This document shows positions 1,378 through 5,934 of a DNA stretch of 24,438 bases, one piece after another. The stretch is from the IMG/VR virus record IMGVR_UViG_3300042391_000182, positions 1 to 24,438 of that record; one strand, given 5' to 3'. The notes beneath the pieces are model-generated. The model was given only the letters and a program-made list of their open reading frames with translations. It did not search any database and had not been told where the DNA came from. How positions within the stretch are numbered: position 1 is the stretch's first letter; every line of letters begins with the position of its first letter. The DNA comes from a virus. The position numbers and the translations under genes are program-made.

Positions 1378-1568
1378 TTCTTAGCCTTGTTCTTAGCTGT
1401 ACGTTGACCACGCTTAGGCAATGATTTACCAGCCTCACTAAGTGCAATTGCAACTGCCTGTTTTTGAGACTTAACTACAGGACCACCTTTGCCAGAATGA
1501 AGTTCACCCTTGCCGAACTCAGTCATTACCTTAGCTACCTTCTTCGCAGCTTTCGATTTCTTCATCAT
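1374..1568 (-). CDS. DUF6496-like small basic protein
   Basis: A 64-residue protein with the core KKVAKVMTEFGKGELHSGKG followed by KSQKQAVAIALSEAGKS, then a Lys/Arg-rich C-terminus. The pattern of a short helix ending FxxGxLxSGxG followed by KQAxAIALSEAGxS is what I know as the DUF6496 domain of small phage and bacterial proteins of unknown function. The ATG at 1568 is preceded by AAGGA with an 8-base gap, although a second ATG follows directly. The gene overlaps the end of the HNH nuclease gene by 38 bases in another frame, and both frames look like real protein in the overlap. Function unknown; binding to nucleic acid would suit the charge. Confidence 0.82.
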   Translation of the reverse strand: MMKKSKAAKKVAKVMTEFGKGELHSGKGGPVVKSQKQAVAIALSEAGKSLPKRGQRTAKNKAKK

Positions 1569-1845
1569 TTAACATTTCCTTTACTTGTTCAAATAGTTGC
1601 TGTTCGGTAGTTTCGTGCTTCTTTTCCCAAGCCTTACGCCCCATTCCGTGATAACCAGTGTTACCTCTATGATGCTCAGGACAAAGCGGAATGACATTAT
1701 CATGCGAGTTTCTGACACCCATTCCTAACCCTAAGCCACGAATGTGATGTATCTCTGCCGGAGTGCCTGCATACCCTAAACGATAGCAAATTATACAACC
1801 TATGTCTGCTACTTTAGACAGATATTGCTTTTCTCTTTTCTTCAT
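1531..1845 (-). CDS. Ref-like HNH nuclease (RecA-dependent nuclease family)
   Basis: A 104-residue HNH-type metal-dependent nuclease. A zinc knuckle CIIC (C17, C20) pairs with LCPEHH (C55, H58/H59). The catalytic-type IHH (H33-H34) and the later HRGNTGYHG segment match the compact HNH arrangement of the phage P1 Ref protein (RecA-dependent nuclease family), in which the last part is TGxHG. In P1, Ref cuts DNA in a RecA-filament-dependent manner and stimulates recombination; a similar role here is inference from the family. The C-terminus is a charged helix. The ATG at 1845 overlaps the stop of the Zn-ribbon gene (ATGA). It sits in the same transcription unit as the VRR-NUC protein. Confidence 0.8.
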   Translation of the reverse strand: MKKREKQYLSKVADIGCIICYRLGYAGTPAEIHHIRGLGLGMGVRNSHDNVIPLCPEHHRGNTGYHGMGRKAWEKKHETTEQQLFEQVKEMLNDEEIESCEEGS

Positions 1846-2039
1846 TTTTCTACTTTATAGCTAGTAAAGCTCTCACCCTGGTTACATTCCGGACAGCAAG
1901 TAACCGTTCCATCAGAGCACCACGGATTATCGTTAACCACCGGAATTTCATCCCAATCATCAATAAATCCACAGTAGTCACATTTTGCTAAATTGCTATC
2001 ATCTATTACATTATCATTTAGGAAAGTATCTTTATTCAT
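1842..2039 (-). CDS. Small zinc-ribbon protein
   Basis: A 65-residue protein with a four-cysteine metal site, CDYC (C20, C23) and CPEC (C49, C52), with extra cysteines at 41 and 48. The rest is acidic. I place the start at ATG 2039, because an AGAGA element lies about 8 bases upstream; a longer start at 2069 has no Shine-Dalgarno within normal distance. Its stop overlaps the start of the Ref-like nuclease gene. Proteins of this type are often small DNA- or RNA-binding or protein-contact modules, but no specific function can be given. Confidence 0.68.
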   Translation of the reverse strand: MNKDTFLNDNVIDDSNLAKCDYCGFIDDWDEIPVVNDNPWCSDGTVTCCPECNQGESFTSYKVEK

Positions 2040-2076
2040 AGTTTTTCTCTCTATTAACGTAAATTTCATTTAAGTT

Positions 2077-2085
2077 TGCTACTAT
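2077..2085 (+). promoter_or_regulatory. Candidate extended -10 promoter for the acidic gene
   Basis: TGC TACTAT reads as an extended -10 element (TGn followed by a one-mismatch TATAAT). No good -35 hexamer is present at 17 bases. Transcription would begin near 2092, giving a very short leader that already contains the Shine-Dalgarno GGAGGA (2095-2100). It is the only visible way to express the isolated plus-strand gene that follows. Confidence 0.38.
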
Positions 2086-2103
2086 TTCTCCACTGGAGGA
2101 TAT

Positions 2104-2403
2104 ATGTACGGCATATCTATCGATGGTCAAGATTTCTGGTTTGAAGCTGAAGAAGTCGAACTCATGCAAATGGATGATGATGGCATAGTCTGGAAATACG
2201 ATAACGAAGCCTGTGTCTGGATGTACTTTGATGACGATGCAGACGAGTGGCTGTTATACGACGAGGATAAGTTTGATCCGTTCACAAAGTCGCTCTTTCA
2301 ACAGCACGATTCGACGCCTCCATCGACCGCCAGCAATCAATCCGAGCCTGAGCAGCGACCAGCATCCAACGTAATCTCTCTGCCTCTGCAACAGCTTCTC
2401 TAA
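2104..2403 (+). CDS. Highly acidic, aromatic small protein; possible DNA mimic or anti-defence protein
   Basis: A 99-residue plus-strand gene isolated inside a minus-strand cluster. It has a strong Shine-Dalgarno (GGAGGA, 2095-2100) just before the ATG. The first 60 residues hold 20 Asp/Glu against two Lys, plus 13 aromatic residues. They include three spaced blocks, VWKYD (29-33), VWMYFDDD (38-45) and WLLYDED (49-55), which look like a degenerate 9-10 residue repeat. The last 40 residues (Ser/Thr/Pro/Gln-rich) overlap the minus-strand gene at 2282-2608 and may be only a consequence of that overlap. Dense negative charge with aromatics is seen in DNA-mimic proteins such as Ocr or ArdA-type antirestriction proteins. 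No sequence match to them is claimed and the function is unknown. Confidence 0.7.
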   Translation: MYGISIDGQDFWFEAEEVELMQMDDDGIVWKYDNEACVWMYFDDDADEWLLYDEDKFDPFTKSLFQQHDSTPPSTASNQSEPEQRPASNVISLPLQQLL

Positions 2404-2608
2404 GCCCTTCTACGCACGTCTTATAGTCATCCGTAGTATAAGCATCAGCTTCCTTCTCAGCCATCGTATTTTTAAGGCTACGCTGAAACCCTAGAGCCTT
2501 GACCGTCTTACGATGCTCCGTTAAGTACGTTACATCTGCCTTAGCTTGTGCATACTTCTCTGCGTTCTTAATCATAAAGTTAATTGCTTCATTTGGATCA
2601 ATATTCAT
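2282..2608 (-). CDS. Conserved helical phage protein, unknown function
   Basis: A 108-residue, mostly helical protein. The pattern is familiar from phages of Proteobacteria: an N-terminal NEAINFMIKNAEKYAQAKAD, then YLTEHRKTVKA, and a C-terminal LREAVAEAERLRWMLVAAQA followed by RIDCWRSMEASNR. Its role is not known to me. It lacks signal peptide, membrane segment and cysteine clusters. The ATG at 2608 overlaps the stop of the VRR-NUC gene, so it belongs to the same operon. Its 3' end overlaps the convergent acidic gene by 122 bases; of the two frames there, this one carries the conserved-looking sequence. Confidence 0.78.
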   Translation of the reverse strand: MNIDPNEAINFMIKNAEKYAQAKADVTYLTEHRKTVKALGFQRSLKNTMAEKEADAYTTDDYKTCVEGLREAVAEAERLRWMLVAAQARIDCWRSMEASNRAVERATL

Positions 2609-2879
2609 TTGTTAGTTTCCATAATAGTAATTTAGCATCATCAGCACTTGTCACTACATTTACCTGACCTTTCCAGAGCTTGTGCCAGTTAACTTGATCT
2701 GGAGTAAGTACCTTTTTATCACCATCCTTGATTTCAAGCAACAAGTTTTTACCTTTGAAGCCTACAACAATATCAGGACAACCCTTTCCTACTGCATGAA
2801 GATGCTGAACCACCGCGCCTAAGTCTCTTAGTGCCTTAACAACCTTGGATTGATTATCGTCTACCCTTTTATAAACCAT
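2598..2879 (-). CDS. VRR-NUC-like nuclease
   Basis: A 93-residue protein with the compact PD-(D/E)xK nuclease core of the VRR-NUC family. GKGCPDIVVG (about residues 31-40) gives the catalytic Asp, LLLEIKDG (about 46-53) gives the E-x-K pair, and an N-terminal helix contains the QSKVVKALRDLGA segment. Family members include structure-specific nucleases that act on branched or flapped DNA, and phage ones are often short single-domain proteins like this. It would act on replication or recombination intermediates. The ATG at 2879 lies inside the end of the preceding gene (19-base overlap), with AGGAG about 10 bases upstream. It is near the Ref-like nuclease and the helicase gene, consistent with DNA processing. 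Confidence 0.85.
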   Translation of the reverse strand: MVYKRVDDNQSKVVKALRDLGAVVQHLHAVGKGCPDIVVGFKGKNLLLEIKDGDKKVLTPDQVNWHKLWKGQVNVVTSADDAKLLLWKLTNEY

Positions 2880-3094
2880 ACACCGTCATCTCCTCTTGAT
2901 CCTTGCGTCCATTGTTCCCTGCAATCTTTTTCTAATATCTGAGCCGTTCTATCTCCGCGTTTATTGCGGACAATAGAGATATATTCAATGGCTTTGTTTC
3001 TATCCTCAGTACGCCACTTTAATACTTGCCGGACTTCGCACCGATGCCTATGCTGTTCAGACCAATTGAAATGAGTTTTGTCGTAAACGTTCAT
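2861..3094 (-). CDS. Small conserved phage protein, unknown function
   Basis: A 77-residue protein with the core HRHRCEVRQVLKWR, KAIEYISIVRNKRGDRTAQI and a C-terminal REQWTQGSRGDDG. I recognise this as a recurring small phage protein (possibly the DUF7696 group) but know no function. It is basic in the middle and predicted to be helical. It begins within the last 38 bases of the DNA methyltransferase gene, in another frame, with only a weak GAGAAA element upstream, so the exact start is uncertain. Its 3' end overlaps the VRR-NUC start. Confidence 0.7.
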   Translation of the reverse strand: MNVYDKTHFNWSEQHRHRCEVRQVLKWRTEDRNKAIEYISIVRNKRGDRTAQILEKDCREQWTQGSRGDDGVWFIKG

Positions 3095-3890
3095 TTTGTA
3101 ATTTCTCGTAATCTTGATTTAATTCACAACCTAAATATTTTCTTCCATGTTGTAAGGCTACTTGTGCTGTAGTTCCACTACCTATAAATGGATCAAGCAC
3201 AATGTCATTCGCTCTACTTCCAGCAAGTATGCAGGGTTCAATCAAAGCAGGTGGAAATGTAGCAAAGTGCGCTCCTTTGTATGGACGAGTAGCAACTGAC
3301 CAAACACTACGACGATTTCTTGTTTCTCTTGCACCTATTTTTGCAATATTTTTTTGAGCACTTCCATTAACATAAATTCCTAAATTTGAATGTCTATGTG
3401 TTTTATTTCCCGGACCTTCTGGTCTGTTAGCCGTTTCCTGCATTGCTTCACTATCAAAAAAATATTTATTTGATTTTGATAATAAAAAAATATACTCATG
3501 CGCTTTAGTGCAACGATCTTTTACTGATTCAGGCATTGGATTTGGTTTATGCCAGATAATGTCTTGTCGAAGCACCCAACCATCTGATTGCAGAGCAAGT
3601 GCAAGCCGCCAAGGAACTCCTATTAATTGTTTACCACTTCCGTAACTATCTCCAATGTTTAGCCAAAGTGTTCCGTCATCAGCTAATACATCCCATACAC
3701 ATCGAAACACTTCAACCATTGCATTGATATATTCCTCTGAAGTTTCTTCTAATCCTATTTGCCCTTCATGACCATAATCACGCAAACCATAATAAGGAGG
3801 ACTTGTCACGCAAGTTTGAACTTTAATACCATCAGAAGCCCATTTACGCATTGTTTCTCGGCAATCACCAAATTCAATTTTATTAAACAC
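3057..3890 (-). CDS. Beta-class DNA adenine/cytosine-N4 methyltransferase
   Basis: A 277-residue DNA methyltransferase of the N6-adenine/N4-cytosine family. The catalytic motif IV is TSPPYYGLRDYG (residues 29-40), placed before the SAM-binding motif DPFIGSGTT near the C-terminus (about 233-241), so the order is that of the beta class. SPPY favours N4-cytosine methylation but does not exclude adenine. The start is put at GTG 3890, giving MFNKIEFGDCRE, because GGAG lies 6 bases upstream; a TTG at 3911 would be longer but has poor signals. It overlaps the helicase stop by 8 bases. No restriction enzyme is adjacent, so it is an orphan enzyme, probably guarding phage DNA from host restriction. Target site unknown. 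Confidence 0.9.
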   Translation of the reverse strand: MFNKIEFGDCRETMRKWASDGIKVQTCVTSPPYYGLRDYGHEGQIGLEETSEEYINAMVEVFRCVWDVLADDGTLWLNIGDSYGSGKQLIGVPWRLALALQSDGWVLRQDIIWHKPNPMPESVKDRCTKAHEYIFLLSKSNKYFFDSEAMQETANRPEGPGNKTHRHSNLGIYVNGSAQKNIAKIGARETRNRRSVWSVATRPYKGAHFATFPPALIEPCILAGSRANDIVLDPFIGSGTTAQVALQHGRKYLGCELNQDYEKLQNERLRQNSFQLV

Positions 3891-4884
3891 GAAACGCTCC
3901 ACGATTATCAAAGTCTATAGGCTGACCACCTTGTACCTCAATGAACTGCTGGCTGTTGTGCTCGAAATACAATCCGTAAAACTCCTCAGCTTCACCGTTC
4001 CTCTGCTTTTGGCACATTAGAAACATATCTGGCTGCTTCTCGTCATAATCCTCATTGTTCCTACGTGCGTTCTCTTTCTTCTTATTACGCCAGACTAAGA
4101 ACACGTTATCCACCTGATCCGCAATTGATCCTGAGCCTTTTAAATCAGTCTTGCCAGGCTGTATCTCCTCAGATTGCAACTTACGTATATGGTGAACCAG
4201 ATGAATGTGTACGTTATGGTCTCTCGCTAATGCACAAAGTTCGTCAACAAAGGATTTCTGCTCGTTTAACGCATCCTCACCGCTAACGCACTTCATTAAT
4301 GAGTCAATAAAGATATGCTGTATCCCTAACTCAACCGCACAGTACCGAGCCATTGCTATCGTTTTCTGAGCAGTCGTAGAACCTTGCTGATCGTAAAGAT
4401 ATAGATTCTCGTCAATGAATCCTGTGAATCTACCCAATAACGACCGTATGTAGCCTTCCTTGTCATGCGTTAACGGAATACTAATATTCTCACCAGCAAA
4501 CTGCCTGAGCATCCTAACAATGGTAGTTACAGGTTTCATTTCATAACTAGCAATGCAAACCTTTAAGTTCTGCTTAATCAATCCTAGTGCTATCTGTCCT
4601 GTTACAAGGCTCTTGCCGCCTCCGTTCCCACCTGCGTATACGGTAACCTCACCTAGCCTGAATTTAACGTCTGCGTGAGTCTTAGACCACGGCATAACAG
4701 CATCTGCTGTCTGCTCTGGGTCGATATAGTTCTGGTATATCTCATCAAGCCAGGTAGCCGCAGATTTAACCTGTGCCGATAAGTCTGTGCCTTTGAGATA
4801 TTTGTCTACATCAATGTTCTGAGACTTGATGATATTGCGATCATCGTAAAGTCGTTCCGCTATTGCAAAAATATTATCCGACAT
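3883..4884 (-). CDS. DnaB/gp4-like replicative helicase (RecA-fold ATPase)
   Basis: A 333-residue hexameric-helicase-type ATPase. The Walker A motif GGNGGGKS is at residues 85-92, followed by the typical LVTGQIALGLIKQNLKV segment. ASYEMKP (about 112) resembles the DnaB/gp4 H1a region, IFIDSLMK (about 195) is Walker B, and HLVHHIRK (about 230) matches the H3 motif. KGSGSIADQVDNVFLVWRN fits the H4 region. It would unwind the fork 5' to 3' as in DnaB and T7 gp4. The N-terminal 65 residues are not a recognisable primase; the zinc-finger primase fragment is encoded by the gene immediately before it, overlapping by 11 bases. Together they resemble a gp4 protein split in two. Confidence 0.9.
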   Translation of the reverse strand: MSDNIFAIAERLYDDRNIIKSQNIDVDKYLKGTDLSAQVKSAATWLDEIYQNYIDPEQTADAVMPWSKTHADVKFRLGEVTVYAGGNGGGKSLVTGQIALGLIKQNLKVCIASYEMKPVTTIVRMLRQFAGENISIPLTHDKEGYIRSLLGRFTGFIDENLYLYDQQGSTTAQKTIAMARYCAVELGIQHIFIDSLMKCVSGEDALNEQKSFVDELCALARDHNVHIHLVHHIRKLQSEEIQPGKTDLKGSGSIADQVDNVFLVWRNKKKENARRNNEDYDEKQPDMFLMCQKQRNGEAEEFYGLYFEHNSQQFIEVQGGQPIDFDNRGAFRV

Positions 4885-5284
4885 ATTTAACTGCCTCCAT
4901 TATTCGATCGTGTGCCATTTTCATCCTAGTTTTATCGACCTCTGATAGTTTCTCGCCCTTTGACATTGAATAAGCTGCTACCGATACAACCAAAGCCTCA
5001 AATTCAATAACTCTAAGCAAGTCTGAAGCATAATATCTTTTCTTAACTGGAGGCAAGTCTTTATTTACGTTAGGGAACAGATCGTTTATATCCATTCCTA
5101 TTGCACCCATGATTTCTTGGATGCTGCAATTAGCAAAGCATTTCAATAAGATACGACCATCATCAACTTCTCTTATCGCTAAGCTAGGAGACTTATCCGT
5201 ATGAGCAGGACAGCAAGCTGTGTACGCTCCGTTACGACCTTTAACCTTCTCTAGGCGGCTGAGTATGTTCTCAATCATTTCCAC
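4874..5284 (-). CDS. CHC2 zinc-finger primase-like protein lacking TOPRIM
   Basis: A 136-residue protein whose first half is a primase-type zinc-binding domain. CPAH (C25, H28) and CFANC (C49, C53) form the CHC2 ligand set, followed by the usual helix SIQEIMGAIGMDINDLFP. In primases this domain selects the priming site on single-stranded DNA. The catalytic TOPRIM domain does not follow. The second half is a helical segment (YYASDLLRVIEFEALVVSVA...) seen in stand-alone phage versions. The gene overlaps the helicase downstream by 11 bases and the DUF1376 gene upstream by 10, suggesting coupled expression of a replication complex. Where the primer-synthesising domain comes from (host DnaG or a gene outside the window) is unknown. 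Confidence 0.85.
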   Translation of the reverse strand: MEMIENILSRLEKVKGRNGAYTACCPAHTDKSPSLAIREVDDGRILLKCFANCSIQEIMGAIGMDINDLFPNVNKDLPPVKKRYYASDLLRVIEFEALVVSVAAYSMSKGEKLSEVDKTRMKMAHDRIMEAVKYVG

Positions 5285-5934
5285 CCCATCAATGGCTTTT
5301 GAGTAGCTCCAGCTATTTCATCTTCCCATCGTTTAGCATTAAGCCAGGTAGCCGCATGAGGAATAAACTGTTGTTCTCGTTCAGATAACTTTTGATCTTT
5401 TACAGCTTTTGTAATTTTTGCAATAAGTTCATCGTTAGGTTTAATCTTTATCCAAGCCTTCTTAGCATTTTCTTTAGCTGTCTTTTTTGGATAGACTTTC
5501 CAAAACGTCTCAAACTGATCGATAGATATATGGTTATTGGTTATTGGTTTATGGTTAGTGGTTAGGGTTATTTTGGGTTCGGCTTGGGTTAGGCTTGGGT
5601 TAGCAGTGGGTTTGGTCTGGCTTCTTGCTGGTCTGCCGCCTAGCTTTCCATTAGCTTTCTGCTTCTCTAAGTATGAATGATAAGCACGTATTTCTTCATC
5701 TGCTCTACTATTCTTATATCCAAATTCAGTATATTCAAACATATCATTCAACACAGATTGAATAATCTCTGAACCCAAACGTAACCTACGGGATACCCAT
5801 TGGATATCGATAGGTATTGGTTTTTCTGTGTCGTAATACATATCAAGCAAACGCCTGTATGCTAAATCTTCGTCATTGCTTAAATGGGATGTGGCAGACA
5901 AATAGTCGCCAATATGGAATTGGTAGTAATGCAT
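5275..5934 (-). CDS. DUF1376 (YdaU-type) phage replication protein
   Basis: A 219-residue protein with an N-terminal DUF1376 domain (about residues 3-95: YYQFHIGDYLSATSHLSNDE, LAYRRLLDMYYDTEKPIP, a winged-helix-like fold). Then comes a Thr/Asn/Pro-rich linker (about 103-137), then a C-terminal FWKVYPKKTAKENAKKAW module with HAATWLNAKRWEDE, found in phage replication and helicase-loading proteins. It probably recognises the origin and brings in the helicase encoded two genes downstream. The linker DNA contains two tandem repeat arrays, listed separately. The ATG at 5934 has a GAGGTATATATG context (GAGG 6 bases upstream). No membrane or secretion signals. Confidence 0.85.
   Translation of the reverse strand: MHYYQFHIGDYLSATSHLSNDEDLAYRRLLDMYYDTEKPIPIDIQWVSRRLRLGSEIIQSVLNDMFEYTEFGYKNSRADEEIRAYHSYLEKQKANGKLGGRPARSQTKPTANPSLTQAEPKITLTTNHKPITNNHISIDQFETFWKVYPKKTAKENAKKAWIKIKPNDELIAKITKAVKDQKLSEREQQFIPHAATWLNAKRWEDEIAGATQKPLMGWK
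5531..5572. repeat. 7-bp tandem repeats inside the replication gene
   Basis: On the plus strand TGGTTAT, TGGTTAT, TGGTTTA, TGGTTAG and TGGTTAG follow each other at exactly 7-base steps from 5531 to 5565, then a shifted GGTTA (5566-5570). They encode part of the Thr/Asn/Pro linker of the DUF1376 protein. They sit immediately beside the 11-bp array and beside a T-rich stretch at 5470-5490, so they may be binding sites or the melting side of an origin. Confidence 0.75.
5574..5617. repeat. 11-bp iteron-like tandem repeats; candidate replication origin
   Basis: TGGGTT recurs at 5574, 5585, 5596 and 5607, a strict 11-base step: TGGGTTCGGCT, TGGGTTAGGCT, TGGGTTAGCAG, TGGGTTTGGTC. A weaker TGGCTTCTTGC follows at 5618. 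Eleven bases is about one turn of B-DNA, so each copy would face the same side of the helix, as iterons do. Phage lambda carries its origin iterons within its replication gene O, which makes the location suggestive. A purely protein-level cause (a low-complexity linker) remains possible because the period is not a multiple of three. Confidence 0.62.

Follow-up and report, generated by a model that had tools for sequence, protein, structure and literature searches.

A head-on acidic-aromatic accessory gene in a phage replication operon: a candidate nucleic-acid mimic

Background

What is a small gene for an extremely acidic, aromatic protein doing on the plus strand of a phage replication operon that is otherwise read from the minus strand? 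The question is raised by a virus record of IMG/VR (IMGVR_UViG_3300042391_000182), of which a stretch of 24,438 nucleotides, here called the window, was analyzed. The acidic-aromatic gene (2104-2403, plus strand) runs from an ATG at 2104 to a stop at 2403, encodes 99 amino acids and lies inside the minus-strand operon, head-on to the genes around it.

Its divergent neighbor encodes a 75-residue protein with CxxC motifs (1842-2069, minus strand), and the same operon carries an HNH nuclease of the RecA-dependent nuclease family (1531-1845, minus strand; PF16786, 9.6e-11; phrog_1588, 1.1e-28). The convergent neighbor (2282-2608, minus strand; 108 residues) is found with or without the acidic gene. 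Further minus-strand genes encode a Holliday-resolvase-like nuclease (2598-2879), a DUF7696 protein (2861-3094), an orphan N6/N4 DNA methyltransferase (3057-3911) and a DnaB-like helicase (3883-4884), and primase/primosomal genes also belong to the cluster. Matches to the window's helicase, to its 635-residue protein and to a relative's capsid protein are phages of various hosts. An int-alpA RNA (Rfam RF02996; 5958-6025, minus strand; 36.5 bits, gathering score 35.8) lies immediately upstream of the primosomal gene 5275-5934.

A sequence-only reading of the window had singled out the acidic gene as a possible DNA mimic directed against host defence. Here, we compare the gene with its relatives and weigh this proposal against other explanations.

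Results

The acidic gene and its leader

The first 60 residues of the protein (calculated pI 4.05) contain 20 Asp/Glu, two Lys, no Arg and 13 aromatic residues, exactly the counts given previously, and the W-x-Y/F repeat that had been described is present (W30-K-Y32, W39-M-Y41 and W49-L-L-Y52). The gene is also, as stated, the lone plus-strand gene between 1 and 6528: other plus-strand ORFs of at least 60 residues in this region (49-234, 273-461, 971-1384 and 4065-4286) were judged spurious because they lie opposite or across minus-strand genes.

A search for the gene in other phages and their neighborhoods, as the sequence-only reading had suggested, was productive. A scan of IMG/VR yielded 27 contigs with a close relative (76-95% identity), and the gene order around it is the same wherever the contig extends far enough. 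An uncharacterized 99-residue protein of an uncultured Caudovirales phage (A0A6J7WIK2; UniProt/BFVD) is 85% identical over 99 columns; it is the same gene at the same length, and its entry carries no name or function. No paper describing the family by title or abstract was found in the literature searched, which covered few subscription journals. The family thus appears uncharacterized, with one homolog already deposited.

The gene had been credited with a strong Shine-Dalgarno sequence of its own and an extended -10 candidate, and both are borne out in the window's clade (clade A). The Shine-Dalgarno sequence, GGAGG (2095-2099, plus strand), was read directly from clade-A leaders. The extended -10 element TGCTACTAT (2077-2085, plus strand) is invariant in 28 of 28 such leaders; the bases TTTGCTACTATTT are identical in all 28, and the spacer to the Shine-Dalgarno sequence varies in both sequence and length. 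A -35-dependent consensus scan did not list 2077-2085 among its sites, so the case for a promoter rests on conservation and not on a consensus score. From this conservation we infer that the acidic gene is transcribed from the extended -10 element. A short hairpin, CTCC-ACT-GGAG (2088-2098, plus strand), could form in the leader and would cover the Shine-Dalgarno sequence, but the pairing is weak and is not conserved across clade A (e.g., it is missing in L002 and L004). No terminator-like site was found in 1800-2700.

A selected core and an overprinted tail

The core of the acidic gene (codons 1-59; 2104-2280, plus strand) is under strong purifying selection: among 24 distinct sequences, pS is 0.402 and pN 0.041, a ratio of 0.10. 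In a second clade (clade B), the corresponding ratio is 0.057 (11 sequences).

The rest of the frame is different. From codon 60, the acidic frame (2281-2403 with its stop, plus strand) lies antisense to the final 41 codons of gene 2282-2608, i.e., its 3' part. In this overlap, pS of the plus frame is 0.046 and pN 0.100 (ratio 2.14), as would be expected if constraint fell only on the opposite frame. Residues from about 60 to 99 bear no sign of selection, and AlphaFold2 gives pLDDT below 50 from residue 66, predicting disorder. The acidic genes of clades B and C, which occupy this site too, stop within a few bases of the neighbor's stop. The tail is therefore incidental antisense read-through of the neighbor, and the simplest history is that an ancestral stop was lost in clade A, which makes this clade a clean case of a gene tail born by overprinting. 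A functional domain in the tail was considered and rejected for lack of evidence: the neighbor's synonymous rate in clade A is low in the overlap (pS 0.226 versus 0.573 outside it), but this is equalled or undercut in matching regions of clade B, where there is no overlap (0.114 versus 0.427).

This shadow of 40 C-terminal codons is the one feature that a chance ORF opposite the neighboring gene would explain. For the core, such an origin is rejected. The ratio of 0.10 is found outside the overlap, the promoter-like element and Shine-Dalgarno sequence are conserved, and homologs occur at other genomic sites; together with the 27 relatives, these values make the gene more than chance. We consider a chance ORF extremely improbable and treat 2104-2403 as a real gene.

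An accessory gene that does not travel with the methyltransferase

In the IMG/VR searches, the matches considered were the best 80 of 172 for gene 2282-2608, the best 80 of 406 in another search and the best 80 of 109 for the family profile. Among the best 80 of 172 relatives of gene 2282-2608, the acidic gene lies beside it in 46 loci and is missing in 34, two of which have little downstream sequence (L090, 132 nt; L116, 314 nt). In L073, whose copy of gene 2282-2608 is 79% identical, the site is empty and the next operon gene begins about 9-10 nt past the stop. In this locus and in L070, also empty, a homolog of the 75-residue gene 1842-2069 directly follows gene 2282-2608. The acidic gene is thus accessory: close relatives can lack it at this locus.

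One part of the sequence-only reading holds, namely an extremely acidic, aromatic gene with a promoter-like element of its own, which proves to be small and accessory. The other part, which connected the gene with the orphan methyltransferase and hence with host restriction, was not supported: a methyltransferase lies between the DUF7696 and helicase genes in one of 23 spanning loci (L020) and so does not travel with the acidic gene. The methyltransferase is itself accessory, occurring among these 23 loci only in L020 (1835-2824) besides the window copy (3057-3911).

A wider family at several genomic sites

The family profile matched 109 places in IMG/VR, of which the best 80 were kept. Besides clade A, the family was seeded by clade B (16 contigs), clade C (29 contigs) and three members that are more distantly related. 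Identity to the window protein is 26-41% in the other clades. Across the family, the proteins have variable N-termini and a common part, EYDEDGVAxWFDEExEVWYxYDEExDDW; E14, D24, G27, W39 and W49 are invariant in 34 aligned rows. In 65 distinct family proteins, which include some with wrongly chosen starts (shortest 43 residues), Asp/Glu account for 21-53% (median 41%) and aromatic residues for a median of 21%, Lys/Arg number 0-5 (median 0), and the net charge ranges from -18 to -45. Negative charge is thus a family trait, conserved as composition. Tandem copies of the acidic-aromatic module were seen in L267 and L276 (both 5001-5330), L290, L309 and L312.

The family occupies three or more genomic sites, and at two of them related phages without the gene are known. 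In a second site class (D), the acidic gene lies between the major capsid gene (in L228, Phage_capsid_4, 6e-11) and the next structural gene; in another position, it follows a metallophosphoesterase gene. In three isolates with related capsid genes, Pag-Yong1, HTVC023P and DSL-LC04, the examined stretch contains no family member (best E 3.4). At class-E sites, a related uncharacterized gene of 100-111 residues is convergent to the acidic gene (L302 4765-5100 and L318 5285-5587, both minus strand); the L302 gene has no match in Pfam or PHROGs, and the L318 gene none in PHROGs. L302 also matches phage PhiPA3 at the DNA level (16% of the query, E 2e-4), but inside an unrelated gene, and this match was set aside.

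Genes for HNH-like nucleases are frequent nearby. Among loci with 1 kb on both sides, 101 of 112 have one within 1 kb (A 25/25, B 15/15, C 34/34, D 22/23, E 5/15), counts in which some contigs were entered twice under different locus identifiers. In class D, the HNH gene lies 0-42 nt from the acidic gene and was convergent to it in the loci inspected. The example in L228 (5144-5629, minus strand) adjoins the acidic gene and is HNH by PHROGs 3106/2255 (phrog_3106, 5.6e-18). In L255 (4257-4826, plus strand; 5141-5503, minus strand) and L228, the acidic gene that follows the capsid gene is bracketed by endonuclease VII-like and HNH genes in a homing-cassette-like arrangement.

The acidic protein might be inherited and move together with an HNH homing endonuclease, serving as its partner, its inhibitor or an immunity-like protein that restrains the nuclease by filling its DNA-binding cleft. 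The counts in classes A to D and the tight spacing in class D speak for such a role, and the three isolates that lack the acidic gene also lack an annotated HNH gene there. The linkage in clades A-C is uninformative, since their HNH is an operon gene that is also found in loci without the acidic gene (e.g., L073). As the types of HNH also differ between loci and two thirds of class-E loci have none within that distance, we regard this role as quite unlikely.

A family-specific leader outside clade A

Leaders outside clade A combine a -10-like TAnnAT, a hairpin and a Shine-Dalgarno sequence. A best stem score of at least 9 was reached by 71% of 70 distinct leaders (clade A included), compared with 9% of dinucleotide shuffles. 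Of these 70, 48 were aligned, leaving out 15 from clade A and seven with wrong or doubtful starts; omission of near-duplicates reduced them to 35, and splitting by stem register gave sets of 18 and 16. Paired cells amounted to 97.2% (18 sequences) and 89.8% (16 sequences) for structures that had been derived from these same sequences. Each register has three pairs with changes on both sides, and its covariation score was matched by none of 500 shuffles. Other measures were less discriminating: 40 and 163 of 500 shuffles reached the number of pairs changed on both sides, the 18-sequence set had no more additional pair types than its shuffles (500/500), and sliding this set by +3 gave 12 double-change cells versus 13.

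Covariance models of the two registers were run on 605 kb drawn from 76 sources. Each of their 67 matches immediately precedes a gene of the family, with no match at any other position. The leader also offers a handle for finding more members. Eight of 75 loci had no leader match; five of these are at or near a contig end and three belong to clade A. The models (R1 and R2) have no match in the window either. The hairpin could stabilize the mRNA 5' end or act as an operator. Its absence from the window's own clade counts against the explanation that we favor below.

Homology and predicted fold

No known family of the unrelated kind that would have told against the sequence-only reading was found for the acidic protein: sequence searches of Pfam, PHROGs and the PDB gave nothing significant. 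In the PDB, the single sequence had no match up to E 10, and a 34-row profile reached E 1.4 at best, with unrelated proteins. Ocr, ArdA, Ugi and other solved DNA mimics are in the PDB, and these searches found no sequence relation to them. A tblastn search of annotated phages with four family members returned nothing relevant, a weak negative because the BLAST low-complexity filter may mask such acidic sequences. Pattern scans of prokaryotes, one genome for each of 84,980 species, gave 88 and 75 candidate stretches, none of which was confirmed.

With 34 sequences of the family as input, AlphaFold2 predicts that the core is a beta meander of six short strands, at a mean pLDDT of 82-91 over residues 1-50. 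A second run on a clade B protein (30 of the same sequences, trimmed; mean pLDDT 76.6, pTM 0.54) gave the same arrangement minus one strand. In the model, 16 of 20 core acidic residues lie outside the strands and 10 of 12 aromatic residues inside; this placement of acids carries little weight, because acidic residues prefer turns in any protein. Comparison with a fold library gave a best Z of 3.2, none of 5 or more and many weak beta-propeller blades, and Foldseek against the PDB a best E of 2.3. No fold match to a known DNA mimic appeared in the structure libraries, whose matches were weak and either beta-propeller-like or unrelated. Weak or missing matches of this kind are uninformative and do not argue for a new fold.

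The conserved D-x-D-G turn and the W/Y ladder weakly resemble cell-wall-binding repeats, and this bears on another explanation, i.e., that the protein binds metal (Ca2+) or is a structural or accessory beta protein whose DEDG-type turns hold cations while its aromatic strands pack on a partner. Choline_bind_1 had a best E of 0.32 with five of 34 members, which is not significant; for PF01473, the choline-/cell-wall-binding repeat, a clade B member scored 11.5 bits against a cut-off of 20.5 and the window protein was unmatched. Class D, where the gene adjoins the major capsid gene, would suit a structural role. Such a role fits poorly with the gene's other positions, in replication regions against the operon and beside a phosphoesterase gene, and no family match was significant in any search. 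We judge this explanation unlikely.

Discussion

The data describe an accessory gene with a strongly selected core, a promoter-like element of its own, several genomic sites and an extreme composition. We propose that its product is a polyanionic protein that blocks a nucleic-acid-binding protein by mimicry, and place the probability of this reading at roughly 0.45, a little short of even. According to this model, a "moron"-like accessory cassette would sit head-on within the phage replication operon; its own conserved extended -10 promoter would drive transcription, and its strong Shine-Dalgarno sequence translation. The product would be a beta meander of about 58 residues, nearly free of Lys and Arg, with aromatic residues mainly in the strands and carboxylates mainly in the turns; the last 40 residues, added as antisense read-through once the ancestral stop had been lost, would be incidental. 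Acting stoichiometrically as a polyanion (nucleic-acid) mimic, the protein would cover the surface by which a host protein binds DNA or RNA, and so help the phage; this host protein may be a defence nuclease, RNA polymerase, or a repair or nucleoid protein.

DNA mimicry is plausible because the negative charge is extreme and conserved as composition and there are almost no basic residues, as in Ocr and the DNA-mimic region of Gp44; the family shares strong acidity with few basic residues with DNA-mimic proteins. The kind of target is likewise our suggestion. The most strongly fixed positions, D24, G27, W39 and W49, look like fold anchors and not like a phosphate-like array, which counts against mimicry.

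Small acidic early phage proteins that regulate transcription are known, and the acidic protein could act on host or phage transcription through RNA polymerase or a sigma factor, without DNA mimicry in particular. A promoter-like element and Shine-Dalgarno sequence of its own would suit such a regulator, but searches by sequence and by fold turned up no related regulator, and we think this explanation very unlikely. The mimicry model can also be extended to a widespread but so far unrecognized phage family of self-contained counter-defence or host-takeover cassettes, with a family-specific promoter and 5' hairpin, a nucleic-acid-mimic beta protein of new fold, at least three sites, partly beside HNH homing endonucleases, and lengthening by overprinting in the window's lineage. 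We regard this larger picture, taken as a whole, as doubtful.

A compact, D/E-rich family with almost no K/R, found in many environmental phages together with a leader of its own, is a good candidate for a new inhibitor of beta-meander architecture directed against the host or its defences, and it may be compared with several known systems. Morons are present in some relatives only, and patchy presence and head-on orientation are common to their loci and the acidic gene. One example of a moron-type locus is described as having its own promoter and as independently transcribed, antisense to lytic genes (PMC7067206). Moron loci have their own terminator, whereas the acidic gene, with no terminator-like site found nearby, runs into its antisense neighbor; the term "moron" is therefore used here only as a likeness.

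T7 gp5.9 is small, acidic and a coiled coil, and no similarity was found between it and the beta meander of the acidic family. This RecBCD inhibitor is described as countering a host nuclease (PMC9836394). T7 Ocr, a DNA mimic active against type I restriction, has 34 acidic and 6 basic residues of 116 by the account in PMC4872106. Like the acidic protein, Ocr is a small, very acidic phage protein; in contrast to it, the acidic family has no sequence match, is richer in Asp/Glu, is nearly free of Lys/Arg, is rich in aromatic residues and is predicted to be all-beta. The DNA-mimic region of SPO1 Gp44 is described as 57% Asp/Glu without basic residues, and as a disordered part of a 27 kDa protein with DNA-binding activity as well (PMC8208478), whereas a folded core is predicted for the acidic family. 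If the acidic protein is a DNA mimic, it would provide a small folded scaffold unlike Ocr, the Gp44 region and gp5.9.
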